The translations under genes were made by a program, and so were the position numbers. A model generated the notes under the pieces. That model did no database searches and was not told where the DNA came from. It saw only the letters and a list, made by a program, of their open reading frames with translations. A DNA stretch of 33,768 nt, from the NCBI GenBank assembly GCA_016871615.1, contig VHCX01000036.1, forward strand, positions 1-33,768, given 5' to 3'. Below are positions 4,851 through 19,365 of the stretch, one piece after another. The stretch's first letter is position 1. The number at the start of each line of letters is the position of its first letter. This DNA is from Verrucomicrobiota bacterium (GTDB taxonomy: Bacteria > Verrucomicrobiota > Verrucomicrobiia > Limisphaerales > UBA9464).

Positions 4851-4857
4851 TTCGGTC

Positions 4858-4861
4858 AGGA
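4858..4861 (+). promoter_or_regulatory. ribosome binding site of the permease gene
   Basis: AGGA lies eight bases before the ATG at 4870, in the 19-base gap after the protease stop codon. It supports that start and suggests translation from a shared transcript with the protease. Confidence 0.5.
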
Positions 4862-4869
4862 TCCACCCC

Positions 4870-6642
4870 ATGATCCCGGACGGCAACCGAGTCGGGGCAC
4901 CGGCCCCGGGGTCGGCCGCCCCGTTCCTGCTGCTCCTGCAGGTCAATGCGCGGTCGATGGCGCGAAAGGCGCTGTCGCTTCGCGAAAAATCCCGCCTCTG
5001 GGTGACCGTCATCGGCATCTTCCTGGTCGGATATGCCGTCATGGCCTATGGGCTCTTCTTCCAGGGCCTGCGGTTCCTGTCCCGCTTCCCGGGCCTGGGC
5101 GGGCTATTGGTCGAGCGGATGCTTTTCCTGCTCTTCGCCTGCCTCTTCGCCCTGCTCCTCCTGAGCAATCTGGTGATCAGCTACTCGAATTTCTTCCGGA
5201 ATCGGGAATCGGATTTCCTGCTGCCCCTGCCCGTTTCCCCGGGGACCATCTTCCGCTGGAAATTCCTCGAGTCGGTCGTCTTGGCCTCCTGGGCGTTCCT
5301 CTTCCTGATCGCGCCGCTCCTCCTGGCCTACGGTCATGTGCAGCGGGTGGACTGGCAATTCTATCCGATGGTCGGGGGCCTTGTGGTGCTGTTCATCCTC
5401 CTGCCTGCGGTGGCCGGCTCCTGGTTCGCGCTGCTGCTGGCGCGCCATCTCGACCGGCGCCTCTTCCAGATCGTGCTGGTCGGGGGCATCGCGCTGCTGG
5501 TCGGGTTCGTCGTCTGGAGGACGCGCCCCACGGAGGTCACCGAGGAGATGCTCCTGGAGAACCGGGTGCTGGTGGTCATCGACCGCCTCCTCGACAACAC
5601 CCGTGTCGTGCAGTTCCCCCTGCTCCCGAGCTATTGGCTGAGTTCGGCGGTCCAGCACTGGGTGGAGGGTGCCTTCCGCGGGGCGATTTTCTACGGCGCC
5701 GTGCTGCTGAGCCACACGCTGTTCTTCGGGTTGATCGCGGTGACGCGCTTCGGCTCGGTGCTGTACGAGGCGACCAGTTGCGTGCGCGGCCGGGGTTCGC
5801 TTCTGGGCGGCTGGAGCCGGCTGCGCCAGCGCCTCGGAGCGCGTCCCGGGCCCCGGGGGTCCGTGGCCTCCAGCAGCCTGCTGGAGCGCTGGGTGGGGCT
5901 GGTTCCGGGGCTTCCCGGCGACATCGGCGCGATCCTAGTGAAGGACATCCGCGTCTTCTGGAGGGACACCACCCAATGGGGGCAGACCCTCATGCTCTTC
6001 GGCCTGCTCACGGTTTACCTGCTAAACCTGCGCCACTTCACGCGGCAGTCGGACTCCGCCTTCTGGGTGTCTCTGACGGGTTTCCTCAACCTCGGCGCCT
6101 GTTCGCTCAACCTCGCCACCATCACCACACGCTTTGTCTTCCCACAATTCTCGCTCGAGGGACGGCGGGTCTGGCTCATGGGTCTGGCGCCGCTCGGGCT
6201 GGCCCGCGTCGTCTGGTGGAAGTTCGTGACGGCCTCGGTGCTCACCGGGTTTCTGACGCTCGGCCTCACGCTCCTGAGCTGCCGGATGCTCCACCTGGAG
6301 GCGGGCCGCACGGCCTTCTTCGCCGCGGCCATCGTGGGCATGACCCTGGTGCTCAACGCCCTCTCGGTGGGTCTCGGCACCCTCTATCCCAATTTCGCCG
6401 AGACCAACCCGGGCAAGATCGTCAGCGGCTTCGGCGGGACCTTCTGCCTCGTGTTGAGCTTCGTATACATCCTGGGCTCGGTGCTGCTCCTGGCCCTGGG
6501 CAGCCCGTGGGGGTGGCATGGCGAGGAGGCCCTGGCAGGGCGCGCCGTGGCCAGCGGCCTCGGTTTCGTCCTCGCCTCGTTGCTCACCGGCGGGATTCCC
6601 CTGCAACTGGCGCTGCGGCGGGCCGCCACCATGGAGCTCTGA
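4870..6642 (+). CDS. ABC-2-like exporter permease, orphan
   Basis: A 590-residue polytopic membrane protein with roughly a dozen hydrophobic segments in two halves joined by a cytoplasmic linker near residues 300-350. The segment NFFRNRESDFLLPLPVSP in the first half, and KDIRVFWRDTTQWGQ at the start of the second half, are typical of the large putative ABC-exporter permeases of the ABC_tran_2 (PF16949-like) group. In these, the DLR.F.RD.TQW motif recurs. Such proteins normally partner with a separate ATPase, but no ATP-binding subunit lies next to it in this window. It may use an ATPase encoded elsewhere. A short gap and an AGGA ribosome site link it to the upstream protease gene, yet a functional link is unproven. 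Confidence 0.75.
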   Translation: MIPDGNRVGAPAPGSAAPFLLLLQVNARSMARKALSLREKSRLWVTVIGIFLVGYAVMAYGLFFQGLRFLSRFPGLGGLLVERMLFLLFACLFALLLLSNLVISYSNFFRNRESDFLLPLPVSPGTIFRWKFLESVVLASWAFLFLIAPLLLAYGHVQRVDWQFYPMVGGLVVLFILLPAVAGSWFALLLARHLDRRLFQIVLVGGIALLVGFVVWRTRPTEVTEEMLLENRVLVVIDRLLDNTRVVQFPLLPSYWLSSAVQHWVEGAFRGAIFYGAVLLSHTLFFGLIAVTRFGSVLYEATSCVRGRGSLLGGWSRLRQRLGARPGPRGSVASSSLLERWVGLVPGLPGDIGAILVKDIRVFWRDTTQWGQTLMLFGLLTVYLLNLRHFTRQSDSAFWVSLTGFLNLGACSLNLATITTRFVFPQFSLEGRRVWLMGLAPLGLARVVWWKFVTASVLTGFLTLGLTLLSCRMLHLEAGRTAFFAAAIVGMTLVLNALSVGLGTLYPNFAETNPGKIVSGFGGTFCLVLSFVYILGSVLLLALGSPWGWHGEEALAGRAVASGLGFVLASLLTGGIPLQLALRRAATMEL

Positions 6643-6651
6643 AAGCCCGAG

Positions 6652-6757
6652 ACGGTAGGAGCACTTTCCTGTTTTCGGGGAGACCGTTGGACGGCGAGGC
6701 GCGAGGCGGGATCACACCCGCAGCGGGCTGGGACCGACGAGCCGGGAAGCCAGCGGG
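6652..6757 (+). other. hairpin-rich spacer, candidate structured RNA
   Basis: The 349-base gap after the permease (6643-6991) has no gene. Its first part is dense in inverted repeats. ACGGT (6652-6656) pairs with ACCGT (6683-6687) and encloses AGGA (6657-6660) paired with TCCT (6667-6670). GCGGG (6706-6710) pairs with CCCGC (6717-6721) around a six-base loop. GCTGG (6727-6731) pairs with CCAGC (6750-6754). GCGGG recurs at 6723-6727 and 6753-6757, so CCCGC has alternative partners. An intrinsic terminator follows. It could be a 3' UTR, a small RNA or chance pairing in GC-rich DNA. Confidence 0.25.
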
Positions 6758-6769
6758 CCCCCTTGCCGG

Positions 6770-6795
6770 AAAGCCCTCCGGACGAGGGGGCTTTT
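6770..6795 (+). terminator. intrinsic terminator downstream of the permease
   Basis: AAAGCCC (6770-6776) pairs with GGGCTTT (6788-6794), and CGG/CCG flanks can extend the stem with one bulge. The 3' arm runs into TTTT at 6792-6795. It sits about 130 bases after the permease stop codon and would end that transcript before the tRNA gene. Confidence 0.6.
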
Positions 6796-6991
6796 CCGAT
6801 GGACGGCGTTGGCTCGGTCGGTTGCAGCCCACTTCAGCGGCTCTGCCGGCCTCCCCGCCGTGGCCATCACCCAAAACCTTCCCCGGGGGACACCTACGGG
6901 AGTTCCCGGCCCTGATGCCCACCGCCCACACGGTCTTTTGGAGTCCCATCTTGACCCTGGGAATGCGCGCATGGTTTCCTTCGGCACCAGC

Positions 6992-7084
6992 GGAGAGGTG
7001 GCCGAGTGGCTGAAGGCGCTGGTTTGCTAAACCGGTTTACGGTCAAAAGCCGTAACGGGGGTTCGAATCCCCCCCTCTCCGCCA
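6992..7084 (+). tRNA. tRNA-Ser (anticodon GCU)
   Basis: A class II tRNA of 93 nt with an encoded CCA. The acceptor arm GGAGAGG (6992-6998) pairs with CCTCTCC (7074-7080), followed by discriminator G (7081) and CCA (7082-7084). The anticodon stem CTGGT/ACCGG encloses the loop TTGCTAA, giving anticodon GCT, which reads AGC and AGU serine codons. The long variable arm forms ACGG/CCGT. The T stem GGGGG (7057-7061) pairs with CCCCC (7069-7073) around TTCGAAT. The D arm contains the usual GCCGAGTGGCTGAAGGC pattern of tRNA-Ser. Confidence 0.97.
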
Positions 7085-7102
7085 GATTTTGCTGCGGTTT
7101 TT
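7079..7102 (+). terminator. terminator of the tRNA-Ser gene
   Basis: CCG (7079-7081) and CAG (7083-7085) pair with CTG (7092-7094) and CGG (7095-7097) around ATTTTG, with one bulged C, followed by five T (7098-7102). The 5' arm uses the last bases of the mature tRNA including the CCA, so the hairpin can form only before the tRNA folds fully. Confidence 0.5.
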
Positions 7103-7284
7103 GAAGATCGCGGGTCAAATGATCGGTCGGCCCACCCGGGCCCCGAGGCTCGTCAATTCTCCACCGCAATCTCCCACCGAGGTTCGCCTGACCGCTTCCG
7201 GTTGTTTGGGACCGCACCGTCAACAGAGTGCAACCCCTGGATGTTGTATCCGCCGCGACCGGTTCAAACCGATCGTGCCGCCAG

Positions 7285-8715
7285 TCATTCCACCCGGCCG
7301 GGTTCCCGGACACCGGCGCCCACCCGCTGCAGACGCCGGTCGCCGAGTTCCGACCGGGCGGTCTCGGCCAGGGCCGTGAGCCGGGCCACGACCTCCGGAT
7401 GGGCGTTGATCACGTTGCGCGTCTCACCCGGGTCACGCCGCAGGTGGTACAACTCGGTGCCGACCGGCAACTGCTGGTAACGGGCGGCCATCCCGTTGGT
7501 GCCGCCCGGCCGGCCGGCCAACGTCTGTGAGGTGTGCGGGAAGAAGAGCTTCCAGTCGCCGCTGCGCACGGCCAGCAGGTCGCCCTGGTTGTAGTAGATG
7601 AAGTAGGCGGGGTGGGGATTGGTGGCGCCGCGTTCCCCGCGTAGGACGGGCCAGACGTCGAGACCGTCGATCGGCTTGGCAGGCAGTGGCGCACCGGCCA
7701 GGCGGGCCACCGTCGGCAGCACATCGATGGTCATGAGCGGCGTGTCATTGGTTCGGCCCTTCGGGATGTGCCCGGGCCAGCGCATGACGCAGGGCACGCG
7801 GATGCCTCCCTCGAAGCTGGTCCCCTTGCCCTCACGGAACGGACCTGCGCTGCCGGCATGGTGGCCATAGCTCAGCCATGGGCCGTTGTCGGAGGTGAAG
7901 ATCACCAGCGTGTCGTCCTCGACCCGGTGGCGCTTGAGCGCCAAGAGCACCTCGCCCACCGAGGCGTCGATCTCCTCGATGACGTCACCATAGAGTCCCT
8001 GCCGCGAACGCCCCGCGAATCGCGCGCCCGCAAACAGAGGCACGTGGGGCATGGAATGCGCCAGGTAGAGGAAGAAGGGCCGTGAGGCGTTCCGGTCGAT
8101 GAAGGAGACGGCGTGCTCGGTGTACCGGCGGGTGAGCTGCGACGGGTCGGGCATCTCCTCGACCACCCGCTCGCCGTTGATGAGCGGCAGAGGCGGGTAG
8201 GCGTTCTTGGCCGCATTGGGGTTCTCGGGCCACATGTCGTTGGAGTACGGCAGGCCGAAGTACTCGTCGAAACCCTGCCGTGTCGGCAGGAGCTCCACCG
8301 GTCTTCCCAGGTGCCACTTGCCGACGATGGCCGTGACATAGCCCCGGGGTTTGAGCACCTCGGCGAGCGTCATCTCGTCCGGGTGGAGGCCGATTTTTTG
8401 TTTTGGGCCAAGGGCGCCATGGATGCCCAGACGGTTGGCGTAGCAGCCGGTGAGCAGGGCGGCGCGCGACGCCGAGCACACGGCCTGGGCCACGTAGAAC
8501 GAGGTGAACCGGGTTCCCTGGCGGGCCAGGCGGTCGATGTGGGGAGTCCGGATCCTGCGGTTGCCGAAGCAGCCGAGGTCTCCCCAGCCCAGGTCGTCGC
8601 AATAGATGAGCACGACATTTGGCGGCCGTGATGGCGCGGCGGATGTTTCGACCACGGTCCACATCAGGAGGAGGGACAGCAGGCGGCGCCAGCAGGTTGG
8701 AAACCGCGAGATCAT
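7285..8715 (-). CDS. secreted sulfatase (type I, formylglycine-dependent)
   Basis: A predicted exported sulfatase of 476 residues that would hydrolyse sulfate esters, probably on carbohydrates. After a signal peptide (about residues 1-27) comes PPNVVLIYCDDLGWGD with the metal-binding Asp pair at residues 40-41. The activation motif CSASRAALLTG begins at Cys80, which would be converted to formylglycine; the usual Pro at the third motif position is Ala here. Later motifs GKWHLG, HSMPHVP and FTSDNGPW supply other active-site residues. I chose the ATG at 8715 rather than the one at 8733 because it gives a clean signal peptide. No formylglycine-generating enzyme or sulfatase-maturation enzyme gene is in the window. 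A divergent antiporter gene starts 150 bases away. Confidence 0.92.
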   Translation of the reverse strand: MISRFPTCWRRLLSLLLMWTVVETSAAPSRPPNVVLIYCDDLGWGDLGCFGNRRIRTPHIDRLARQGTRFTSFYVAQAVCSASRAALLTGCYANRLGIHGALGPKQKIGLHPDEMTLAEVLKPRGYVTAIVGKWHLGRPVELLPTRQGFDEYFGLPYSNDMWPENPNAAKNAYPPLPLINGERVVEEMPDPSQLTRRYTEHAVSFIDRNASRPFFLYLAHSMPHVPLFAGARFAGRSRQGLYGDVIEEIDASVGEVLLALKRHRVEDDTLVIFTSDNGPWLSYGHHAGSAGPFREGKGTSFEGGIRVPCVMRWPGHIPKGRTNDTPLMTIDVLPTVARLAGAPLPAKPIDGLDVWPVLRGERGATNPHPAYFIYYNQGDLLAVRSGDWKLFFPHTSQTLAGRPGGTNGMAARYQQLPVGTELYHLRRDPGETRNVINAHPEVVARLTALAETARSELGDRRLQRVGAGVREPGRVE

Positions 8716-8865
8716 GGGACCATGGTCGGGCAACCGGTGCGGTCCGGGAAGCGCAGAACGACAGGACCTTGCGGATCGCTGGTCCGCGGCCCGCCCGGGC
8801 TGTCCCGATGGACGAAGGCTCGACGAACCGAGTGTTTTCGGCGATCCTCAAGCTTTATTCTGGAC

Positions 8866-10140
8866 ATGAAGCCGACCTCAGCCGAACTCCTCGCCACGGG
8901 GCTGTTCACCCTGGCCGTGCTGCATACCTTCTGCATCAAGCGCTTCGCGGACTGGTCCCACCATCAGCCGAAGGGTTCGGTCCGACAGAGCCTGCTGCAC
9001 TTTCTGGCCGAGACCGAGATCGTCTTCGGCCTGTGGGCGGCCCTGCTCTTCGTGGCCATCGGGATCCTCGGCGGTTCGGTCCAGAAGGCGGTGGCCCACA
9101 TCGACAGCCTGAACTTCACCGAGCCGAAGTTCGTGTTCGTGGTGATGGTCATGGCCGCCACCCGGCCGGTCGTCGCGCTCGCCGAGCGGATGATCCTGTG
9201 GGTCTCGCGCCTGATCCCGCTCGGCGAGGCGACAGCCTTCTACGTGGCGGCCCTGTCCTTCGGCAGCCTGCTGGGATCCTTCATCACCGAGCCCGCCGCG
9301 ATGACCCTGCTGGCCATCCTGCTCAAGCAGCGCTACTTCGACCGGGGCATCCGTCCGCGCTTCGCCTACGCCACCCTGGGCCTGCTCTTCGTCAACGTGT
9401 CCATCGGAGGCACCCTGACCCACTTCGCCGCGCCCCCCGTCCTCATGGTGGCCTCCAAGTGGCAATGGGACAGCGCCTACCTGTTCACCCACTTCGGTTG
9501 GCGCGCGGCCGCCGCCTGCCTGACCTCGACGGTACTCGTCGCCGCGGCCTTCCGGTCCGAATTGGCGAAGGTGCCCGTGCTCGGCCGCGACGAGGACCGG
9601 ACGCCGGCTTGGTTGACGGCCACCCACCTCGGACTCCTGGCCTGCGTGGTCGCCTTCGCCCATCACCCGGATGTCTTCCTCGGGGTCTTCATGATGTTCC
9701 TCGGGGTCGTCTACTCGACACTGCCCCACCAGGACGGACTGAAGTTCCGCGAGGGACTGCTCGTGGGATTCTTTCTCGCCGGTCTGGTCACCCTCGGATC
9801 CCTGCAATCGTGGTGGCTCAAGCCCCTGATCACGGGGATGGACGGGGCGACCCTCTACTTCGGGGCCACCGGCCTGACCGCCATCACCGACAACGCCGCG
9901 TTGACCTACCTTGGGTCGCTGGTGGATGGCATCGGTGAGCCGATGAAGTATGCGCTCGTCGCAGGCGCCGTCACCGGCGGCGGCCTGACGGTCATCGCCA
10001 ACGCCCCCAACCCGGCCGGCGCGGGCATCCTGCAGAACTCGGAGGTGTTCAAGGCCTCGGGCATCAGCCCGGGAGGTCTGTTCCTTGGGGCGCTGCCGCC
10101 CACGCTGGTGGCGGTCGTCTTCTTCTGGCTGGCCCCCTGA
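8866..10140 (+). CDS. putative Na+/H+ antiporter
   Basis: A 424-residue polytopic membrane protein with about ten or more hydrophobic segments. It resembles the 'putative Na+/H+ antiporter' family (PF07399-like). Recognisable features are the SLLGSFITEPAAMTLLA segment, a GGTLTHFAAPP segment, and a conserved late region with AITDNAALTYLGSL and GGLTVIANAPNPAG. The last two are typical of ion-transporter superfamily reentrant loops. I chose the ATG at 8866, since the frame upstream to 8722 lacks hydrophobic character and would overlap the divergent sulfatase promoter. It probably exports sodium in exchange for protons at the inner membrane, but the substrate ion is inferred from family naming. 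It ends 54 bases before the convergent PHP-domain gene. Confidence 0.75.
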   Translation: MKPTSAELLATGLFTLAVLHTFCIKRFADWSHHQPKGSVRQSLLHFLAETEIVFGLWAALLFVAIGILGGSVQKAVAHIDSLNFTEPKFVFVVMVMAATRPVVALAERMILWVSRLIPLGEATAFYVAALSFGSLLGSFITEPAAMTLLAILLKQRYFDRGIRPRFAYATLGLLFVNVSIGGTLTHFAAPPVLMVASKWQWDSAYLFTHFGWRAAAACLTSTVLVAAAFRSELAKVPVLGRDEDRTPAWLTATHLGLLACVVAFAHHPDVFLGVFMMFLGVVYSTLPHQDGLKFREGLLVGFFLAGLVTLGSLQSWWLKPLITGMDGATLYFGATGLTAITDNAALTYLGSLVDGIGEPMKYALVAGAVTGGGLTVIANAPNPAGAGILQNSEVFKASGISPGGLFLGALPPTLVAVVFFWLAP

Positions 10141-10194
10141 GCGCTCCTTCGATCGGGTGTTCCAAGGCCCCCGCCGCCGGTCCTCCGCGAAGCG

Positions 10195-11520
10195 TCAGCG
10201 AGGCTGCCAGGGTTGGATCCAGGCGGCGGCGGTCTCACCCTTCCGGGACGGGTTGGCGATCCTCTCCGAGGACGTGACCACCGCGCGGACGTAGAGTTCA
10301 CCGCCCCTGGCCGTGTACCGGGCCCGTGGCCCCACCGACACGGCCAAGGTCTCGCCGATCCGGTGGCTGTAGCGCCAGGTGGCCCGGATGGGCTCTCCCT
10401 TGGCGGACATCACCGGTGAACGGGTGGCATCGAAACCGCGGCGGGTTCCGACAAAGCGGATCGTGTAGTTCACCCCGGGTTCCGCCTCGACCTCGACCCG
10501 CATCGTGTTGCCGGTCCGCTCGAGGCGGCGCAAGGACACCCCGCTGCTGCCGTAGAAATCCCCCGACTCCAGCGCGGCCACGAGGGACGGCGCATCCAAC
10601 TGCTCCGACCGCACCATCACCCAGCCCCGCCCCTGGTTGCTCTGGTCGCTCCCGTGGCGGTGGTAGTGGTGGAAATCGTCGACGGCGAGCCCGTGCATCG
10701 GGGGCAGGTCGAGCTTCCCGAGGCGCCGCGCCAGCACGATGTCCCACATCCGTTCCATGCCGGCGTGCACGGTGTCGCCCACGTTATGGACGGCCGGGTT
10801 CCCGTTGTAGACCTCGAAGAACCGCTCGCCGCGCACCTGCATGAGGTCCTCGGCCGTGATGCCCCAGCCGAAGTTCGGATGGTTGATGTGGGGAAACATC
10901 GGCTGGCCGGTCTGGCGGCGCTGCTCCAGCACGGCGTCGACACCCCGCTGCATCACATCGAGCACGTTGGTGTCGCCTTGCGCCGGGATCTTCCGCCGCA
11001 GGTTGGTCGCGTTGATGTGCACCGGGAACGACAGGTGCCCGCTGGTGATCTCCTTCGAGGGAATCATGAGGAAGCGCCCCGGCTGCTCCAGGAGGCCCCG
11101 GAACTCCGCCAGGGTCTTGAGCTGGTACTGGTTGGTGCCCTGCAGCGTCCTCTGGACCAGCCAGTCGCCGCCGAAACGCCGTCGGTTTTTCTCCAGTGCC
11201 TCCGGGAAGTGGTTCTTCATCGACCCGGTCACCCACTGCTCGCCCTCGAGCATCCGGTTGTGGTCCGACAGGGCCAGGAAGTGATACCCGTGGTCCTTGT
11301 ACCACGCGGCGATGGATTCCGGGAAGTCGTCGCCGTCGCTCCAGAGGGAGTGGGTGTGCAGGTTGCCCTTCCACCAGCGGGCTTCCGCAGCCAAGGCCGC
11401 CGGCAGGAGGACCAGCAGGCCGGCGACCGCCAGGATGGCGAGACCCGGAAAACCACGCCCGGGAAGGTTCGACGAGGGATCATGCCACCGGGCCAGCGGA
11501 GGCCCCCGGCGGCCGTGCAA
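10195..11520 (-). CDS. secreted PHP-domain (CehA/McbA-like) metallohydrolase
   Basis: A predicted exported metal-dependent hydrolase of about 441 residues. After a hydrophobic signal segment (about residues 26-45) the sequence reads WWKGNLHTHSLWSDGD, the first PHP motif with its metal-binding His pair at about residues 55-57. FLALSDHN follows as the second motif, and HINHPNFGWG and AVDDFHHY as later ones. This matches CehA/McbA-type secreted PHP phosphoesterases, whose natural substrates are mostly unknown. No ATG is available in this frame near the signal segment; a TTG at 11520 is the best start I can find. The open frame continues upstream to 12111, but there it is antisense to the dehydrogenase gene. 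A C-terminal beta domain is present (about 340-441). Confidence 0.75.
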   Translation of the reverse strand: MHGRRGPPLARWHDPSSNLPGRGFPGLAILAVAGLLVLLPAALAAEARWWKGNLHTHSLWSDGDDFPESIAAWYKDHGYHFLALSDHNRMLEGEQWVTGSMKNHFPEALEKNRRRFGGDWLVQRTLQGTNQYQLKTLAEFRGLLEQPGRFLMIPSKEITSGHLSFPVHINATNLRRKIPAQGDTNVLDVMQRGVDAVLEQRRQTGQPMFPHINHPNFGWGITAEDLMQVRGERFFEVYNGNPAVHNVGDTVHAGMERMWDIVLARRLGKLDLPPMHGLAVDDFHHYHRHGSDQSNQGRGWVMVRSEQLDAPSLVAALESGDFYGSSGVSLRRLERTGNTMRVEVEAEPGVNYTIRFVGTRRGFDATRSPVMSAKGEPIRATWRYSHRIGETLAVSVGPRARYTARGGELYVRAVVTSSERIANPSRKGETAAAWIQPWQPR

Positions 11521-11643
11521 GCGGGTTTTGGATTCCGGTTTTGGCTTCGCATGGTGGCGGCCCCTGTCATCCTCCACGCCATGCCCCCGGCCTGCCACGA
11601 CGGTCCTGCGGACGAGTCCCTGCCCGGCTCGCCATCGTCCGGG

Positions 11644-12516
11644 ATGCGACGTCGCCGCGTCGCCATCGTGGGCCTGGGACTGATGGGTTCGGCCTTCGCC
11701 GAGCGCCTGCTGCGCGCCGGTCACGAAGTGCTCGTGTGGAACCGCACCCGCGGGAAGGCCGATGCGCTGCTTGAAGCCGGGGCCCGCTGGACGGACCGTC
11801 CGCTGCGGGACTGCGACACCGTGCTGGTCTGCCTCTATACCGACGAGGTGGTCCGCTCGGTGCTGGAATCGATGCGCGCGGACTGGCGGCCCGGCTTGGA
11901 CCTCATCGACAGCACCACCGGCGATCCGGGGGCGGCCCGCGCGATGGCCGACGACCTCGCCGCAAGCGGGGTGTGCTATCAGGAGGCCCCCGTCTCCGGA
12001 TCCAGCGCGCAGACGCGGGACGGACTGGCCACGGTCTTCGTCGGCGGTCCGGCCGAGGCGTTCCAGCGGTTGTCGACACTCTGGCCCGTGCTCGGGGCCC
12101 GGGTGCTGCACTGCGGTCCCTGCGGCAGCGCCTCGCGCCTCAAGCTGATCACCAACCTGGTGCTCGGACTCAATCGCCTGGCCCTCGCAGAAGGACTGGC
12201 CTACGCCGAGGCCGTCGGCGTGGACGGTGCGGTGGCCCTCGAGGCCATGAAGGGATCGATGGCCTATTCACGGGCCATGGACGCGAAGGGGGTGAAGATG
12301 CTGGGTCGCGATTACACCCCGCAGGCCCGGTTGTCCCAGCACCTGAAGGACCTGAGGCTCATCCTCGAAAGCGCCCGCGGGAACGGCCTGGAATTGCCCC
12401 TGGGCGCTCTGCACACACGCCTGCTCGAGCAAGCCGAGTCGTCAGGCCTCGGCGACCTCGACAACAGCGCCGTCTTCGAACTGCTGCGGCGACGGCCGGC
12501 CGCCCCTGGACCATGA
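11644..12516 (+). CDS. beta-hydroxyacid dehydrogenase-like NAD(P)-dependent oxidoreductase
   Basis: A 290-residue member of the 3-hydroxyisobutyrate dehydrogenase/tartronate-semialdehyde reductase family, which oxidises or reduces beta-hydroxyacids with NAD(P). The Rossmann motif VAIVGLGLMG is at residues 6-15. WNRTRGK follows the second strand, where Arg suggests possible NADPH preference. The substrate loop APVSGS lies at about 118-123, and the expected catalytic Lys is in SRLKLITN. The start at 11644 places the motif at the N-terminus; an in-frame ATG at 11581 would add 21 residues, and I cannot exclude it. Its stop overlaps the next start as ATGA, so it is translationally coupled to the MFS gene and is the first gene of a three-gene operon. 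Confidence 0.88.
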   Translation: MRRRRVAIVGLGLMGSAFAERLLRAGHEVLVWNRTRGKADALLEAGARWTDRPLRDCDTVLVCLYTDEVVRSVLESMRADWRPGLDLIDSTTGDPGAARAMADDLAASGVCYQEAPVSGSSAQTRDGLATVFVGGPAEAFQRLSTLWPVLGARVLHCGPCGSASRLKLITNLVLGLNRLALAEGLAYAEAVGVDGAVALEAMKGSMAYSRAMDAKGVKMLGRDYTPQARLSQHLKDLRLILESARGNGLELPLGALHTRLLEQAESSGLGDLDNSAVFELLRRRPAAPGP

Positions 12517-13808
12517 CGCCCGCACTGTCCCGACCGGCCCGGTGGGGTGTCCTGACCACCGCGATCCTCGCCCTGCTCTTCGATGGCGTGGAGTTGGGCC
12601 TCATGCCTGTCGCCTCGCTGTCCGTGTCGAAGTCGCTTCTTGGCAGCGCCTATACCCCGACCCTCGGGGGCGACTGGTTCGCCCGCTTCACCGCCGCCTT
12701 GATGCTAGGCGCGGCGGTCGGGGGCATCGTGCTGGGTGGCCTCGGCGATCGGGTGGGCCGCACCCGGGCGCTCGGAGTCAGCGTGCTGTTCTACTCGGTC
12801 TTCGCAGGTCTGGGGGCCTTGGTCGAAACCCAGGGTCAGATGCTGTTGCTCCGGTTCCTGGTGGGCTTGGGCGTCGGCGGGGTTTGGCCGAATGCCGTGG
12901 CGCTGGCGGCCGAATGCTGGCCCGACAAGTCCCGGCCACTGGTCGCCGGCCTGATGGGAGCCGCCCTCAACGGCGGCATCCTGCTGCTCTCGCAGGTCGT
13001 GCGCATCTGGACGCTGACGCCGGATTCGTGGCGTTGGCTCTTCCAATGGGGTGCCCTGCCGGCGGTGCTGGGGCTCGCCGCCCTGACGGTGGTGCCCGAG
13101 TCGCCGCTCTGGCGCAACCGGCGGGTCACGGCCTCCCACGGCGGGGGCAACGACCTGAGCAAACGCCTCCCGGTATTCTGGACGCTGTTCACCCCGCCCC
13201 TCCTGCAGACCACGCTGGTGGGCATCCTGATCGGGTCGATCCCGTTGGTCGGGGCCTGGTCGGCCAGCAAGTGGATGATCCCGTGGGCCGATGCGGTGGC
13301 CGGTGGGGCGGCGCCCGGCTACAAGGCCTCGGCGCAGGGGTATTGGGCGCTCGGGGCCGTGCTCGGGAGCTTCTGCGGGGCGCAAATCGCCCAGGCGCTC
13401 GGCCGACGCCGGGCCTATGCGTGGATGAGCCTGGCCTCGGCGGCGTTGACCGGGTTCCTCTTCGTGGGCACCCGCCCGCTCGCCCCGGGGTTCTTGCCGA
13501 CCGTTTTCGCCCAAGGGTTCGTGGCCACGCTGTTCTTCGGCTGGCTGCCCCTCTACCTACCGGAACTCTTCCCCACCGAGGTGCGCGCCGCCGGCAGCGG
13601 CATCGCCTACAATGTCGGGCGCTTCGTCACTGCCGCCGGCGTCCTGGCAGCGGGCGGACTCTTCGTGGCTCTCGGCGGATCCTATCCCCGCATCGGTGCG
13701 GTCTGCGGACTGGTCTACCTCCTGGGGGTGATCGCCATCCGATGGGCGCCCGACACCACCGGCACCGATCTCGACGCACCGCGAACCTCGACCCCTGCGA
13801 ACCCATGA
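12513..13808 (+). CDS. MFS transporter (sugar/organic-acid type)
   Basis: A 431-residue major facilitator superfamily permease with about 12 hydrophobic segments. The signature loop between segments 2 and 3 reads GGLGDRVGRTRAL. A second-half loop has the repeat-like GRRRAYAWM. The general pattern (LLFDGVELGLMP near the start, FPTEVRAAGSGIAYNVGR late) is like the metabolite:H+ symporter branch that carries aromatic acids, sialic acid and sugar acids. The ATG at 12513 overlaps the upstream TGA, and its own TGA overlaps the next ATG at 13805. It therefore sits in the middle of a coupled operon and most likely imports the substrate, or exports a product, of the flanking enzymes. The exact substrate is unknown. 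Confidence 0.88.
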   Translation: MTPALSRPARWGVLTTAILALLFDGVELGLMPVASLSVSKSLLGSAYTPTLGGDWFARFTAALMLGAAVGGIVLGGLGDRVGRTRALGVSVLFYSVFAGLGALVETQGQMLLLRFLVGLGVGGVWPNAVALAAECWPDKSRPLVAGLMGAALNGGILLLSQVVRIWTLTPDSWRWLFQWGALPAVLGLAALTVVPESPLWRNRRVTASHGGGNDLSKRLPVFWTLFTPPLLQTTLVGILIGSIPLVGAWSASKWMIPWADAVAGGAAPGYKASAQGYWALGAVLGSFCGAQIAQALGRRRAYAWMSLASAALTGFLFVGTRPLAPGFLPTVFAQGFVATLFFGWLPLYLPELFPTEVRAAGSGIAYNVGRFVTAAGVLAAGGLFVALGGSYPRIGAVCGLVYLLGVIAIRWAPDTTGTDLDAPRTSTPANP

Positions 13809-16800
13809 ACCCTCCTCAAACCCGCTGCCGCCCCCGCGATGCGGCCCGCACCAGACAGACCCTGCGCCGGTGGGCTCTCGCCTGGATTCCCGCCCTGGCT
13901 TGCAGCGCCGCCGACTTCGAGGATCCCAACGCCGACCGAGAGGCCATGCCCACGGTGCCGCCGGGTTTCGAGATCACCACCTTCGCCCGCGACCCGCTGG
14001 TGCGTCAGCCCTGCTCCATGGCCTTCGACCTGCAGGGGCGACTGTGCGTGGGCATGGGTCCGCAGTACCGCAGCCCGACGCCGAAAACCCCGGGCGACAG
14101 CGTGGTCTGGGTGCTGGACACCGATGGCGACGGCAAGGCCGACCGGACGAAGGTCTTCGCCACCGGGTTCAACGCCATCCAGGGACTGGCCTGGCGCGGC
14201 CGTGACCTGTGGGTGGCCAATGCGCCCGACCTGACGATCGTCCGGGACCTCGACGGCGACGACGAGGCCGACGAGTACGTGCGCCTCTACACCGACCTCG
14301 GGAACCTGGAGCATGGGTTGCACGGCCTGAACTGGGCCCCCGACGGCAAGCTCTACATGAGCAAGGGCAACTCCAAGGGACTGTCCCAGCCGGGGCGGGT
14401 TGCGCCGAAGGCCTTCCGGAACCTCTGGGGCGTCACCGCCCCGCCGGGGTCGCCCGATCATCCGGCCGCCAGGACCTTCGCCAAGGGCCGCTACGAGAAG
14501 AACTACCACGATCCGGAAGACGACTGGGGACGCGAGGGCGGCGTGCTGCGCTGCGATCCCGACGGACGGAACCTGGAGATCGTCTCGCGGGGTTCCCGCA
14601 ACCCCTGGGACATCACCTTCGACACCGGGTTCCATTGGCTGGGCACCGACAACGACCAGACCACCGGCGACCGGGTCTTCATGCCCTTCGACCGGGCCCA
14701 CTTCGGCTGGAACCATCCCTGGAGCGCCCATTGGGGCACCGAACCCCACGCGCCCTCCGCACCGGTCAGCGGCCCGCTCTTCGAAGGCTCGGGAACCGGC
14801 ATCGTCTTCGGCGACTCGCCGGCCTTCCCGGCATCGCATCGCGGCGTCTTCTTCATCAACGACTGGCTGCGCAAGACCACCTTCCTCTGGCGTCCTCGCT
14901 GGGACGGCGCCCTGATGCGACCCGAGGGCGGCGACTGGCTGCCGTTCATCGAGGGTGGGAAGGCGCTGTTCCGGCCCACCGACCTCGAGTTCGGCCCGGA
15001 CGGTGCGCTATGGGTGCTGGGCTGGGGCCGCGGCTACGGCGCGGAATACCGCGATGGGCAGTTTGCCAGTGAGGGGCGCATTTTCCGCGTCGCGCGGGTC
15101 GGATCTGGTGGCTCGAAGCGGAGCAACCCTCCGCACGATCGTCCACCGGCACGCCGGTCGGTGCCGCAATGGCTCGAGGCCTTCGAGTCCCCCCTGCCCG
15201 TGCGCCGGGTCGAAGCCCAGGAGGAATTGGTGCGCCGGGGCGCTTCCGTGGTTTCGGCCCTGCGCACGGCCCTCTCCAAACCGAGGATGCCCGAGGGCCG
15301 ACAGACCTGGACCGCGTGGACCCTTGGCCGGATCGCCGAGCAAGACGCCACCGGCGACACCTGGTTCGAGCGGCAGGCCGCCGATCCCGAATCACCCCTG
15401 AACCTGCGGCTCCAGTCGGTCCGCATCGTGGCCCACCGGCGCGTCGCCCGGCTCGACCAGGAGGCCCTGCCTGCGGCCATCGTCTCCCGCTTGGCCGACC
15501 AGGAACCCCGCCTCCGCTTCGCGACGATCCAGGCGCTGGGCCGGGTGCCCGCCGCCTCGGCCCGCCCCGGCGTTCCCTCGCTGCTCGAGGCCCTGGCCCG
15601 CGAGACGGACGACACCGTGTTTTATGCCGGATGGCAGACGCTGCGCGCGCTTCAGGAACCCGGCCAGCTTCGCCCGCTCCTGACCGATGCGCGCGCCGGG
15701 GTGCGGCGGGCGGCCTTGCTCGCCCTGCTTGAGGACCATGCCCTGCCCGAGCCCGAGGTCCGGCGTCTCGCCAAGGACGACGACACCCGCGTGGCTGGAC
15801 TTGCGGCGCGTTGGATGGAAAAGGCCACCGGCGAGGGGGCATCCCTGATGGTGCGCGGACGCCCCTTGGGCGGTTCGTCAGCCAGCCCGTCTGCCGGAAC
15901 CGACCTCGGCCCCGAGCCGAAGCACCTGTACCCGGCCAAGATGTCCTTGCCGGCACCGCCTGCCCGCGAGACCGCGGTGGCCCAGGCGTTGGAGCGCTTC
16001 CCGGAGGGTGATCCCCGGCGCGGGGCGTGGCTCTTCCACCACCCTCAGGGCGCGGGATGCTTCCAGTGCCACCGGCTCGACGGCCATGGACAGGGCTTCG
16101 GCCCGGACCTCTCGGTCGTGGGGGCCCGGGTCCCCGTCCAGCACCTCGTGCAATCGATCCTGGAGCCCAACGCCGTCATCACCGAGGGCTTCAGCCTGCA
16201 TCGGGTGGAGACCGCCGACTTGGAACTCTCCGGCATCCTGCTCGAGGAGAGCGGACTGAGCGTGACGCTGGGACTGGCCAACGGACGCCGTGAAACGATC
16301 CCCAAGGCCAGGATCACGGCCCGCGGGTCTGCGACCCAATCGGCCATGCCGGCCTATGACACTGTCCTGCCGGCCCGCGCCGTGGCCGATCTCGCGGCCT
16401 ACCTCGTGCGTCAGGGCGCGCCGGCCCCGGGCGGTTCTCCGGGCTCGGGTCCCACCTCCGGGGCCGCGACGCCCGCCGCGGCAATCGCCACCGCCGATAC
16501 GCTCGCCGTCTCCGAAAGCCCGGGACGACTGCACCTCACCCGGGGCGGGTTCCCGCTGGCCGACTTCGTCCTTCAGGACGACCGCATCCTTCGACCGCAT
16601 TTCGCGAATCTCCACGCCCCTGGAGGCCATCGGGTCAGCCGGCATCACCCGCCCCGTCCACAGCTGGACGCCGTGGACCACGACACCATGCACCCCGGCC
16701 TGTGGCTGGCCTTCGGCGACATCAACGGCGTGGACTTCTGGCGCAACCGCGGGCGCATCGTGCACCGGGGATTCGCCCACCGTCCGGAGGCCCGCGACGG

Positions 16801-17362
16801 ACGCCTCACCTTCGCGACCGACAACCACCTGGTCGACCCGAAGGGTGCCGTGATCGGTGAGGTGCGCCATCGGATCACCTGCCGTGCCCGGCCGGGAGCC
16901 ACGGTGCTGCTCTGGGAGGCGACCTTCCGCAGCGAGGTGGGCGACCTGGTGTTCGGGGATCAGGAGGAGATGGGTTTCGCCGCGCGGGTGGCCACGCCGC
17001 TGACCGAGAAGAACGGCGGTCTGCTCACCAGCAGCGAAGGACGCACCTCGGCCTCGGCCACCTGGGGCCGGGCCGCGGCCTGGTGCGACTACTCCGGCAC
17101 CGTGGATGGGCGGCGGCTCGGCATCCAGATCGTGGCCGATCCCACGAACTTCCGTCCCAGTTGGTGGCACAATCGCGACTACGGCGTTTTCGTGGCCAAT
17201 CCGTTCGGGCGCGAAGCCATGAAACAGGGCGAAAAGAGCCGGGTGACCGTGCCTCGCGGCGACGCCTTCACCATGCGCTTCGGAGCCATCCTGCACGCCG
17301 ACTGCGCCACCCCGCCTTCGGCCAGGGCCGAGTGGTGCAAGGCACCGGCCGAGGCCCCCTGA
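13805..17362 (+). CDS. PVC-type dehydrogenase / HEAT / cytochrome c / DUF6807-like fusion protein
   Basis: A 1185-residue predicted exported protein with four parts. After a signal segment (about residues 20-36) comes a PVC-type membrane-bound dehydrogenase beta-propeller (about 45-435; TIGR02604-like) with two Asp-rich DTDGDGKAD/DLDGDDEAD loops at 105-113 and 148-156. HEAT-like helical repeats span about 452-675. A PVC-type heme domain (about 724-870) carries CFQCH at 752-756, and Met848 in SAMPAYD is the likely axial ligand. The C-terminus (about 900-1180) resembles DUF6807, also called PmoA-like. The likely role is periplasmic oxidation of a sugar or related compound with electrons passed through heme c. 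The gene overlaps the MFS stop codon as ATGA and ends 21 bases from the convergent deacetylase. The substrate is unknown, and I inferred the fusion from one uninterrupted frame. Confidence 0.85.
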   Translation: MNPPQTRCRPRDAARTRQTLRRWALAWIPALACSAADFEDPNADREAMPTVPPGFEITTFARDPLVRQPCSMAFDLQGRLCVGMGPQYRSPTPKTPGDSVVWVLDTDGDGKADRTKVFATGFNAIQGLAWRGRDLWVANAPDLTIVRDLDGDDEADEYVRLYTDLGNLEHGLHGLNWAPDGKLYMSKGNSKGLSQPGRVAPKAFRNLWGVTAPPGSPDHPAARTFAKGRYEKNYHDPEDDWGREGGVLRCDPDGRNLEIVSRGSRNPWDITFDTGFHWLGTDNDQTTGDRVFMPFDRAHFGWNHPWSAHWGTEPHAPSAPVSGPLFEGSGTGIVFGDSPAFPASHRGVFFINDWLRKTTFLWRPRWDGALMRPEGGDWLPFIEGGKALFRPTDLEFGPDGALWVLGWGRGYGAEYRDGQFASEGRIFRVARVGSGGSKRSNPPHDRPPARRSVPQWLEAFESPLPVRRVEAQEELVRRGASVVSALRTALSKPRMPEGRQTWTAWTLGRIAEQDATGDTWFERQAADPESPLNLRLQSVRIVAHRRVARLDQEALPAAIVSRLADQEPRLRFATIQALGRVPAASARPGVPSLLEALARETDDTVFYAGWQTLRALQEPGQLRPLLTDARAGVRRAALLALLEDHALPEPEVRRLAKDDDTRVAGLAARWMEKATGEGASLMVRGRPLGGSSASPSAGTDLGPEPKHLYPAKMSLPAPPARETAVAQALERFPEGDPRRGAWLFHHPQGAGCFQCHRLDGHGQGFGPDLSVVGARVPVQHLVQSILEPNAVITEGFSLHRVETADLELSGILLEESGLSVTLGLANGRRETIPKARITARGSATQSAMPAYDTVLPARAVADLAAYLVRQGAPAPGGSPGSGPTSGAATPAAAIATADTLAVSESPGRLHLTRGGFPLADFVLQDDRILRPHFANLHAPGGHRVSRHHPPRPQLDAVDHDTMHPGLWLAFGDINGVDFWRNRGRIVHRGFAHRPEARDGRLTFATDNHLVDPKGAVIGEVRHRITCRARPGATVLLWEATFRSEVGDLVFGDQEEMGFAARVATPLTEKNGGLLTSSEGRTSASATWGRAAAWCDYSGTVDGRRLGIQIVADPTNFRPSWWHNRDYGVFVANPFGREAMKQGEKSRVTVPRGDAFTMRFGAILHADCATPPSARAEWCKAPAEAP

Positions 17363-17383: not shown

Positions 17384-19156
17384 CTATTTGGGTGCCGGCA
17401 AGGACGTGAGGTATTGGCGGCGGCGGATGACCGCCCACGGGTCTTGCGGGGCGTCTGACGGATCGATGTACCGGTCGAGGTCGCGCAGGGCGATGGCCCG
17501 GTATCCGTTGTTCTTCAGCCACTGCAGGTACTCGCGGAAACGTTCGAGCGGCGTGTTGACCCAGGGGTGATCCCGGTCGGGCACCCCGTGGAACTGCAGC
17601 ACCGCGATCCGGCCGCCGCGTGCCTGCTCGGCCGCGTGCCGGAAGTTCTCCAGCGTCCAGGTGGGGCGAGCGTCGCCGGTGGTGGGGATCAGCAGCGGGT
17701 GGTCCCACTCCGGTTCATAGGCCACGCCCCGACCGGTCTCGTAGGCGAACTCTGGTTGCGCACCTCGTCGGGCCCAGCGGAAGCCCAGGTCCCTGAGCAC
17801 CGCCAACGCCCCGGGATGGATGGCGTTGCCCGGGTAGGCGAAGCTGATGGGCTTGGGGATGCCATGCCGCACACACAACGCGTCGATGTGCGTCAATTCC
17901 TCGCGGAGGCGGCCCAGCACATCGGGGCCGATGCCCACATGGCTGCGGGTGTGGTTGCCGACCTCGAAGCCGTCGCGGTGCAGTTCGGCAATTTGCTGCC
18001 AGGTCATGTAGTCGGTCTTGTTGGTGAGGAAGCTGAAGCCCTCGGTGATGAAGAAGCTCGCCCCGAAACCCAACTCCTTCAGCAGAGGCCGCACATTCGC
18101 ATGCAGCGAGGCCACCGAGTCGTCGAAGGTCAGCACCACGAGCTTCTCGGGGATGGGCTGCCGGCGACGGATCTCCGGCAATGGCCGCGCCAGGAACTCC
18201 CGGCGCAGGCGGTCGAACTCAGGCACCGGGTCGGCGCCCTCGAAGAACCAGACCCAGCCACGGGCCTCGCGCGTCTCACCGGGCGGGCAGTCGCTCCACC
18301 GGGGATCGGCATGGATGCAGGGCACCGGGGGGTTCTGCCAGACGCGGTTCAGCCCGTCCCACGCGGTGATCACCCAGCGCCGTCCGCTGGCATCGGCCGC
18401 GGCCGCGAACGGCGCCTCGAGGATCCGCCGACCCGCCGCGGCATCGGCGAAACCGGTGGCCCGCCCGAGCAGGACGCAGACCTGGGCGCTGAGCTGCCGC
18501 AAGGCCTGGGTGCTGCCGTTGCGCACCCATGCCCGGAATTCCGCGTGTCCCACCCCCGGCGTCACCCGGGTCCCAAAGGCCACCCCGTCGGGCAGCGTCC
18601 GCATCATGGCCAGCGAACCGTCAGCACGCCGGCTCCATTCCACGGGTTCCAAGGGTTGGCCGGCTTTTTCCCAGATCGTTGGAATGTGTCGGTGAGCGAG
18701 GTAATTCAAGCCGAGGTGGGACCAGATTGCCTCAGGGACATCCACCACCACCTGGCCCCCGTTGTCCCAAGGAGGGAACAGACTGACCTTGGTGTCACGC
18801 TGCGGATCGATCGCGCCCTCGAAGAATCCCAATCGCGGATGCCGGCCGCCGGGATAGGGCAGGACGCGGATCGTTCCACCCGCCGCCCCGGAACCCGATG
18901 AAGCATCGGCCGGCATGCCCCACTGCTTCAGGGCCGCCGCGATCACCTCATCGCTCAGCCCGGTGGCCGCGCGAACCTCGGCGGCGGTGTACCGGTGGAA
19001 GCGGATCATGTTCTCCAGCCACTCGGCCTGGTCGGCAACTCCCTGCGGAGGTCGTGCCGTTTGAGCCTGCGGCTCGGCGACGGCCACGTGGATCCAACCC
19101 ATCGCCAGGACCAGCCAGCCCAACAAGGACCGCACGCGGTTTCTCAAAGGATTCAT
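17384..19156 (-). CDS. secreted polysaccharide deacetylase (NodB fold) with long N-terminal extension
   Basis: A predicted exported protein of 590 residues whose C-terminal half is a NodB-type deacetylase (carbohydrate esterase 4). The catalytic motif TFDDS is at residues 343-347, followed by the metal-binding GNHTRSH, then SFAYPGN and a late LQFHGVP with the last conserved His. It would remove N- or O-acetyl groups from a polysaccharide. The first 310 residues are not a family I recognise: a short helical stretch resembling an HTH-like module (about 45-80), then a beta-rich region that may bind carbohydrate. I chose the ATG at 19156 over a TTG at 19183 because it gives a standard signal peptide (about 1-28). 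It is monocistronic as far as I can see. Confidence 0.85.
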   Translation of the reverse strand: MNPLRNRVRSLLGWLVLAMGWIHVAVAEPQAQTARPPQGVADQAEWLENMIRFHRYTAAEVRAATGLSDEVIAAALKQWGMPADASSGSGAAGGTIRVLPYPGGRHPRLGFFEGAIDPQRDTKVSLFPPWDNGGQVVVDVPEAIWSHLGLNYLAHRHIPTIWEKAGQPLEPVEWSRRADGSLAMMRTLPDGVAFGTRVTPGVGHAEFRAWVRNGSTQALRQLSAQVCVLLGRATGFADAAAGRRILEAPFAAAADASGRRWVITAWDGLNRVWQNPPVPCIHADPRWSDCPPGETREARGWVWFFEGADPVPEFDRLRREFLARPLPEIRRRQPIPEKLVVLTFDDSVASLHANVRPLLKELGFGASFFITEGFSFLTNKTDYMTWQQIAELHRDGFEVGNHTRSHVGIGPDVLGRLREELTHIDALCVRHGIPKPISFAYPGNAIHPGALAVLRDLGFRWARRGAQPEFAYETGRGVAYEPEWDHPLLIPTTGDARPTWTLENFRHAAEQARGGRIAVLQFHGVPDRDHPWVNTPLERFREYLQWLKNNGYRAIALRDLDRYIDPSDAPQDPWAVIRRRQYLTSLPAPK

Positions 19157-19365
19157 GTCGGGAATTCGGGTTCTATCGGCCAAATCCCACCTGCGGGGCT
19201 TGCCGTTTACTGGAGGCGGTCCGAACCCAATCGAGGCAATCCGACACCCGGGCGCACAAGAAGGGTGATCGGTTTTCCGTTGAGAGTTCCAAGACGATGC
19301 GGAATTCCCAATTGAACCGGCCCGCTGGTTGCAGTGACCTCGAGCAAATCCTCAAGTGATCGATC

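Follow-up and report, generated by a model that had tools for sequence, protein, structure and literature searches.

Within the parts of the literature covered, the sole purified protein of the TIGR02604-HEAT-heme type found in print was Lac161_ORF7, a TIGR02604-HEAT_2-heme protein encoded on a verrucomicrobial cosmid that released glucose from lactose with a Km of 1.8 mM (PMC5342196). It was made in Escherichia coli and was reportedly active alone, without Lac161_ORF9, the PF14100 (DUF6807) neighbour included in its putative operon, and where the paper mentions heme, PF14100 or ORF9, joint action of the two proteins is not proposed (PMC5342196). A second point of comparison is CcPDH, a fungal quinohemoprotein pyranose dehydrogenase (AA8-AA12) that carries a propeller of the soluble sugar-dehydrogenase kind and a heme domain in one chain (PMC6881789, PMC4332668); it has three domains and heme b, with pyrroloquinoline quinone (PQQ) bound in a solved site at Arg430, Asn431 and His363 (PMC6881789). 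Here we analyzed a stretch of 33,768 nucleotides from a Verrucomicrobiota bacterium (contig VHCX01000036.1 of assembly GCA_016871615.1; hereafter the window), in which a single gene at 13805..17362 (+) encodes a fusion protein of 1185 amino acids. Its modules are, in order, a TIGR02604/DUF7133 propeller as found in dehydrogenases of the Planctomycetes-Verrucomicrobia-Chlamydiae (PVC) bacteria, HEAT-like repeats, a TIGR02603 heme c domain and a DUF6807 domain. The first three are those of Lac161_ORF7, in the same order, whereas Lac161_ORF7 is described with these three domains only and PF14100 lies in a separate ORF (PMC5342196). Unlike CcPDH, with its heme b and PQQ and its reported domains without DUF6807, the fusion has heme c, and PQQ is putative. 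Named searches of the open-licence PMC literature found no description of a TIGR02604-HEAT-heme-DUF6807 fusion; where PMC10971088 refers to PF14100/DUF6807, it gives only the number. We give about an even chance to the reading that the fusion acts in the periplasm as a dehydrogenase of sugars (or sugar acids), its chain including a high-potential cytochrome and also a second domain active on carbohydrates.

The gene is one uninterrupted ATG-to-stop frame, and Pfam and NCBIfam searches together with an alignment of relatives confirmed the four joined modules that an earlier, sequence-only reading of this DNA had claimed. The propeller (residues 54-430; 13964..15094, +) scored 181.8 bits against the curated TIGR02604 cut-off of 122.2 and also matched DUF7133 (PF23500; E 7.1e-39, 134.6 bits against a cut-off of 27). 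The helical repeats that follow (residues 455-668; 15167..15808, +) are called HEAT-like only, since HEAT_2 (PF13646) stayed below its gathering cut-off (24.8 vs 27.7 bits); they appear as helices 453-675 in the predicted model and match alphaRep/HEAT chains. Next comes a linker of low model confidence (residues 676-720; 15830..15964, +), placed from the predicted model and from comparison with relatives, several of which have an extra 100-150 amino acids or so between the repeats and the heme domain, a region shortened in the window protein. The heme c domain (residues 735-868; 16007..16408, +) scored 81.6 bits against the TIGR02603 cut-off of 68.15. DUF6807 closes the chain (residues 910-1177; 16532..17335, +) and matched positions 3-269 of the 270 of the PF14100 profile (E 4.4e-39, 135.2 bits against a gathering cut-off of 27); the accession PF20100 given for it in the sequence-only reading was wrong, whereas the significant domain match it foresaw for the end of the protein was found, and the whole protein passes the cut-offs of both TIGR02604 and TIGR02603. 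At the N terminus, residues 1-36 (13805..13912, +) resemble a signal peptide, and relatives have hydrophobic leaders in this region, so the protein is probably exported. The frame is stop-free upstream as far as 12542, within a transporter gene read in another frame; a longer protein starting at 12542 was rejected because relatives align only from about residues 21-48 and the upstream stretch belongs to that gene.

Concerning the propeller, its profile matched the glucose/sorbosone dehydrogenase (GSDH) 2g8s (E 1.9e-8), and hhalign aligned it with GSDH proteins of the host genus (probability 98, E 2.2e-13). The best Foldseek matches of the full model were PQQ glucose dehydrogenases; soluble PQQ glucose dehydrogenase 1qbi was matched with E 4.7e-9 and PQQ aldose dehydrogenase 3das with E 8.7e-8. 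As modelled, with uneven pLDDT across this part of the whole-chain prediction, the propeller adopts the fold of quinoprotein sugar dehydrogenases. It contains the sequence EHGLHG at residues 169-174 and an RNP motif, Arg265-Asn266-Pro267, that aligns with its counterpart in 2g8s; in the homologous CcPDH, PQQ is contacted by an Arg-Asn pair, and the residue equivalent to His144 is named as catalytic (PMC6881789). The beta-propeller oxidase of the sequence-only reading thus stands as a fold, whereas oxidase activity is putative and PQQ use is doubtful for the reasons given below. By our own grouping of 52 match pieces, a related propeller, heme domain or both occur at about 30 other places in the host genome.

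The heme c domain carries the attachment motif CFQCH at residues 752-756 (16058..16072, +) and, within the sequence SAMP, Met848 (16346..16348, +), both located directly before DUF6807 as first read. Cys752, Cys755, His756 and Met848 were invariant throughout an alignment of 15 proteins, in which the window protein was compared with 14 full-length relatives (51-84% identity). The general Pfam model Cytochrom_C fell just under its cut-off (20.9 vs 21.3 bits). The domain is homologous to that of the diheme cytochrome c Kustd1711 (7zs0; profile E 3.5e-26), in which Met292, the distal ligand, aligns with Met848, and it is this alignment that assigns Met848 its ligand role. Kustd1711 itself differs in being a putative electron carrier of a nitrite-oxidoreductase cluster, with two heme domains and no propeller (PMC11791136). 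The potentials of its hemes lie near +350 mV, which the authors attribute to a Ca2+ located 6.9 A from the iron and coordinated by backbone carbonyls, water and a heme propionate (PMC11791136). A loop resembling this Ca2+ loop, by a pattern defined for this analysis, was present in 39 of 50 fusions collected from GTDB genomes (see below), the window protein being similar in this sequence, and on this analogy a high heme potential is plausible in the fusion. S-x-MP occurred in 50/50 of these fusions and CxxCH in 45/50. In four of the misses (L159, L170, L185 and L187) the frame starts only within the heme domain, in one case at a contig edge; L170, L185 and L187 start there away from any contig edge and are possibly frameshifted or broken copies. 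The fifth, L178 (frame 7166-10846), has a full heme domain with CFNCN in place of CxxCH, so that the proximal heme His is lost to Asn and S-x-MP is retained. The genome also contains a gene for cytochrome c assembly. The electron-carrier heme c proposed earlier is borne out by the TIGR02603 match, the invariant heme residues and the homology to Kustd1711.

DUF6807 was modelled from 63 sequences with a pLDDT of 96.6; a sequence search found no match for it in the PDB. The model shows the super-sandwich fold of galactose mutarotases and PL26 polysaccharide lyases: by VIA, the PL26 exo-rhamnogalacturonan lyase 5xqg was matched with Z 17.4 (rmsd 3.3, 241 aligned residues) and, tied with it, the galactose mutarotase GalM 4bze with Z 17.0 (rmsd 3.5, 231 aligned). 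DUF6807 shares the fold of GalM and the PL26/PL4 lyases at Z of about 15-17, whereas identity is about 5-12% and the order of conserved His and acidic residues (H959/H963, D1052/E1055, H1122, H1164) differs from that of the residues mutated in GalM (H96, H170, D243, E304). Fifteen polar or aromatic residues (R946, D958, H959, H963, D977, W979, D1052, E1055, W1087, W1093, H1122, R1124, Y1126, N1132 and H1164) are kept in 50/50 fusions, that is, the window and 49 others. The same 15 are kept in 29/29 near non-fused copies, two of which are contig-edge pieces of uncertain layout, and are largely retained in 29 distant copies. Because all fused copies keep them, the fused DUF6807 of the window type is not a decayed remnant. 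DUF6807 might be a sugar-binding appendage without catalysis, as super-sandwich domains are also parts of GH97, GH36 and GH2 enzymes in the same fold-match lists, and in those enzymes they are non-catalytic. The invariance of the same polar residues in fused and near non-fused copies across two phyla, and the existence of standalone DUF6807 proteins, make a binding role alone improbable in our view.

The family label of DUF6807, PmoA or methane oxygenase, deserves a separate comment. PmoA is a membrane protein, the integral membrane subunit of pMMO, whereas DUF6807 was modelled as a soluble-type beta super-sandwich, and we found no link of the domain to PmoA beyond the label. Since the super-sandwich model is of high confidence, the label is, on the evidence of that model, misleading. 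The second domain with possible catalytic function that the sequence-only reading saw here is consequently retained in a different sense, that of a mutarotase/lyase fold with conserved polar residues, and its PmoA connection is dropped. A metatranscriptome study took PF14100 as its model for the methane oxygenase PmoA (PMC10291797). Our results make that use unsafe, because if DUF6807 is not PmoA, its PF14100 counts do not measure methane oxidation.

The fusion is not restricted to the window. Heme domain and DUF6807 were found in one frame in 19 of 50 genomes of the same family, comprising 14 single contiguous matches, two split matches within one long frame and three matches cut by contig ends (one spread over two contigs); two more contig-edge fragments in this set were ambiguous. 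When the best 80 of 338 relatives in a GTDB scan were kept, the two domains shared one frame at 50 loci, 29 of them in Planctomycetota and 21 in Verrucomicrobiota, and all four modules were recognised in 38 of these 50 (four at a contig edge) with models built from the fusions themselves. An assembly error, which the sequence-only reading had named as a way for its claim to fail, is ruled out by this recurrence in independent assemblies. A single origin of the window-type fusion was not upheld, as 15 changes of the fusion label are required on a tree built with a quick method, and starred branches force at least 7 of these; some standalone copies in that tree are contig-edge fragments, which blurs the count of gains and losses. 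At one locus in a metagenome-assembled genome of Planctomycetaceae (L145, 9755-10855), the DUF6807 frame is broken by two in-frame stops.

DUF6807 was present in at least 94 of 387 genomes drawn from the phylum Verrucomicrobiota, and 18 stretches with the domain, mostly long frames and one from the window's own genome, were taken for a close look. At least three genomes, all of one other genus in another family, have the reversed layout, DUF6807 followed by the propeller and then HEAT-like repeats. One of these fusions (L091) ends in a cytochrome c. In the second (L092, frame 4466-8185, -) a plastocyanin/azurin-type cupredoxin stands in the place of the cytochrome c, with a Copper-bind match above the Pfam cut-off and an azurin-like match below that of NCBIfam. 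The third (L093, frame 4034-7753, -) equals it in frame length and gave no heme match over the part covered by the domain scan, which stops short of its end. In a DUF6807 domain tree (quick method, midpoint root, several long branches) the three reversed fusions grouped as a separate clade (SH-aLRT 100), outside a 79-row clade holding all 50 window-type fusions of the tree, the window included; for this reason the two layouts most likely arose separately. The reversed fusions keep only some of the DUF6807 positions examined, among them H959, D977, W1093, N1115 and R1124. The swap of cytochrome c for cupredoxin argues for an electron-carrier role of the heme domain, and a second, separate fusion in reverse order, together with the Lac161_ORF7 operon holding PF14100, argues for a functional tie between propeller and DUF6807. 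The idea that modules often found as separate proteins are joined here needs rewording, since the first three form the ordinary layout of PVC dehydrogenases, as in Lac161_ORF7; the fusion to DUF6807 is what is special, yet it is common in two phyla. What is new is this fusion, made at least two times in opposite orders and once with a different electron carrier. Other long frames, read from stop to stop, join DUF6807 to a GDSL lipase (L105, 72-1745), to HEAT repeats (L088, 1594-4938) or to an O6-methylguanine methyltransferase (DNA-methyltransferase) domain (L103, 5723-7513), and in L094-L096, of which L094 was scanned, to a sub-threshold GSDH/DUF7133 propeller without heme.

The fusion gene is the last of an apparent operon. 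Upstream of it lie a beta-hydroxyacid dehydrogenase gene (NAD_binding_2; 11629..12516, +; start approximate) and a major facilitator superfamily (MFS) transporter gene (Sugar_tr/MFS_1 by Pfam; 12513..13808, +), each overlapping the next gene by 4 nt, the second overlap being ATGA, an arrangement that suggests co-transcription of the three. For the transporter the nearest NCBIfam models were symport families, all below cut-off; for the dehydrogenase the nearest equivalog, 2-hydroxy-3-oxopropionate reductase, was likewise below (171.8 bits vs 340.75). An MFS gene was located within three genes at 8 loci among 46 fusion genes and 6 among 49 standalone DUF6807 genes, and an NAD_binding_2 dehydrogenase at 7 and 5 loci, respectively, always on the same strand, these loci being related and so not independent. 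A neighbour cluster taken by eye for a DapA aldolase (cluster 19) is a carbon-nitrogen hydrolase according to Pfam. An ORF at 10195-12111 (-) was rejected as a gene at full length because Pfam and tblastn place the forward-strand dehydrogenase there. Its part at 10198-11379 (-) is a conserved gene that runs divergently from the operon, with 81-88% identity in five further genomes of the genus and the motif LHTHSLWSDGDD; frame 10198-12111 (-), which contains it, had no Pfam match. On the other side, a polysaccharide deacetylase gene (17384-19183, -) is convergent with the fusion gene, and a relative of this deacetylase gene comes after the fusion in further genomes of the genus.

From the modules, their conservation, the fold class, the heme ligands assigned by homology and the overlapping genes, we infer a cofactor, a substrate, an electron path and a DUF6807 catalysis along the following lines. 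The protein would be exported and its heme c attached; the propeller would oxidise a sugar hydroxyl and pass the electron to the adjoining His/Met heme c, acting as a high-potential carrier, and from there to a periplasmic acceptor. The DUF6807 super-sandwich may bind or convert the same sugar before oxidation, by anomer conversion as in mutarotases, or alternatively may act after it, cleaving or rearranging the product as in PL26/PL4 lyases. The MFS transporter would then import the product, for reduction or oxidation by the beta-hydroxyacid dehydrogenase whose gene lies just upstream.

Several observations weigh against this scheme. The whole-chain model is middling (pTM 0.56) and a weak guide to how the domains are arranged. 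The super-sandwich also occurs in proteins without a sugar role, such as a TPR-domain protein (Z 17.1), the periplasmic domain of YidC (Z 15.6) and an NDH subunit (Z 15.3), and a common fold by itself shows no function for DUF6807. Standalone DUF6807 genes are rarely found beside PVC dehydrogenases (2/28 loci); in a count of 49 standalone genes such a dehydrogenase lies within three genes of 4, only one of them on the same strand, and a general operon linkage between the two was rejected, as by a rough estimate chance could suffice. The remaining points concern the cofactor. Among 19 genomes of the host genus, 67-97% complete, PqqC was found in none (the model is valid in the phylum, with 6/387 genomes over cut-off) and PqqE over cut-off in none, this model having no positive control over cut-off. 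In register with GSDH, the position of the catalytic His (equivalent to His144) is occupied by E169, with His170 one residue on, and that of the PQQ Lys (equivalent to Lys377) apparently by Leu355, with Lys357 nearby, the columns being read by eye; the shifted register of the hhalign alignment gave no clean catalytic-His match. E. coli, the host used for Lac161_ORF7, is not known to make PQQ. The activity reported for Lac161_ORF7 is, moreover, hydrolysis and not oxidation (PMC5342196). If PQQ is used at all, the lack of detected PQQ synthesis in the genus implies that it is scavenged. The same genus (g1) has 10-20 GSDH matches in each of its 19 genomes, without PqqC or over-cut-off PqqE, which again implies scavenged PQQ or another cofactor.

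These facts can also be read as signs that the propeller works as a hydrolase or serves for binding, with a structural or sensor heme and nothing oxidised, given that no PQQ synthesis was found in the genus, that the catalytic His is displaced and that hydrolysis is reported for the E. coli-expressed relative (PMC5342196). We judge this quite unlikely, because both fold and RNP motif correspond to those of quinoprotein sugar dehydrogenases, CxxCH is kept in most fusions, with L178 the only one of the five misses truly without the His, and the cupredoxin of L092, another electron carrier, replaces the heme domain. The lactose result could, furthermore, stem from carry-over of E. coli LacZ.

A further and bolder alternative, which we consider unlikely, is an oxidative glycosidase contained in a single chain: a glycoside would be oxidised by the propeller, at C3 for instance, with the heme as electron acceptor, and DUF6807 would then split the bond so activated through hydrolysis or beta-elimination. 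DUF6807 shares the fold of PL26/PL4 lyases, and standalone DUF6807 is often near Gfo/Idh/MocA oxidoreductases (13 loci among 49 genes), a family that serves oxidation-elimination chemistry. Lactose is cleaved by Lac161_ORF7, whose putative operon includes PF14100 (PMC5342196); in Agrobacterium, C3-oxidation with subsequent elimination is an established route (PMC10628242), and a periplasmic LacABC system with DUF1080 has been proposed in Caulobacter (PMC9007349). On the other hand, the regiochemistry is putative, Lac161_ORF7 reportedly acted without its PF14100 neighbour (PMC5342196), and the eliminases described in PMC10628242 are TIM barrels instead of super-sandwiches. The more specific form of this proposal, a self-contained periplasmic oxidative glycosidase whose own heme c (a cupredoxin in the reversed fusion) takes the electrons and whose DUF6807 is a mutarotase/PL26-fold lyase that breaks the activated bond, we hold to be a slim possibility.

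Little is known about what the propeller/heme proteins of the PVC type oxidise. Found repeatedly in two phyla, and elsewhere in reversed order, the fusion connects PVC dehydrogenases with a single partner domain and, by extension, with a single kind of substrate. From it follows a testable proposal for the function of DUF6807, and it makes two unknowns, DUF7133 and DUF6807, approachable through one assay on one purified protein.

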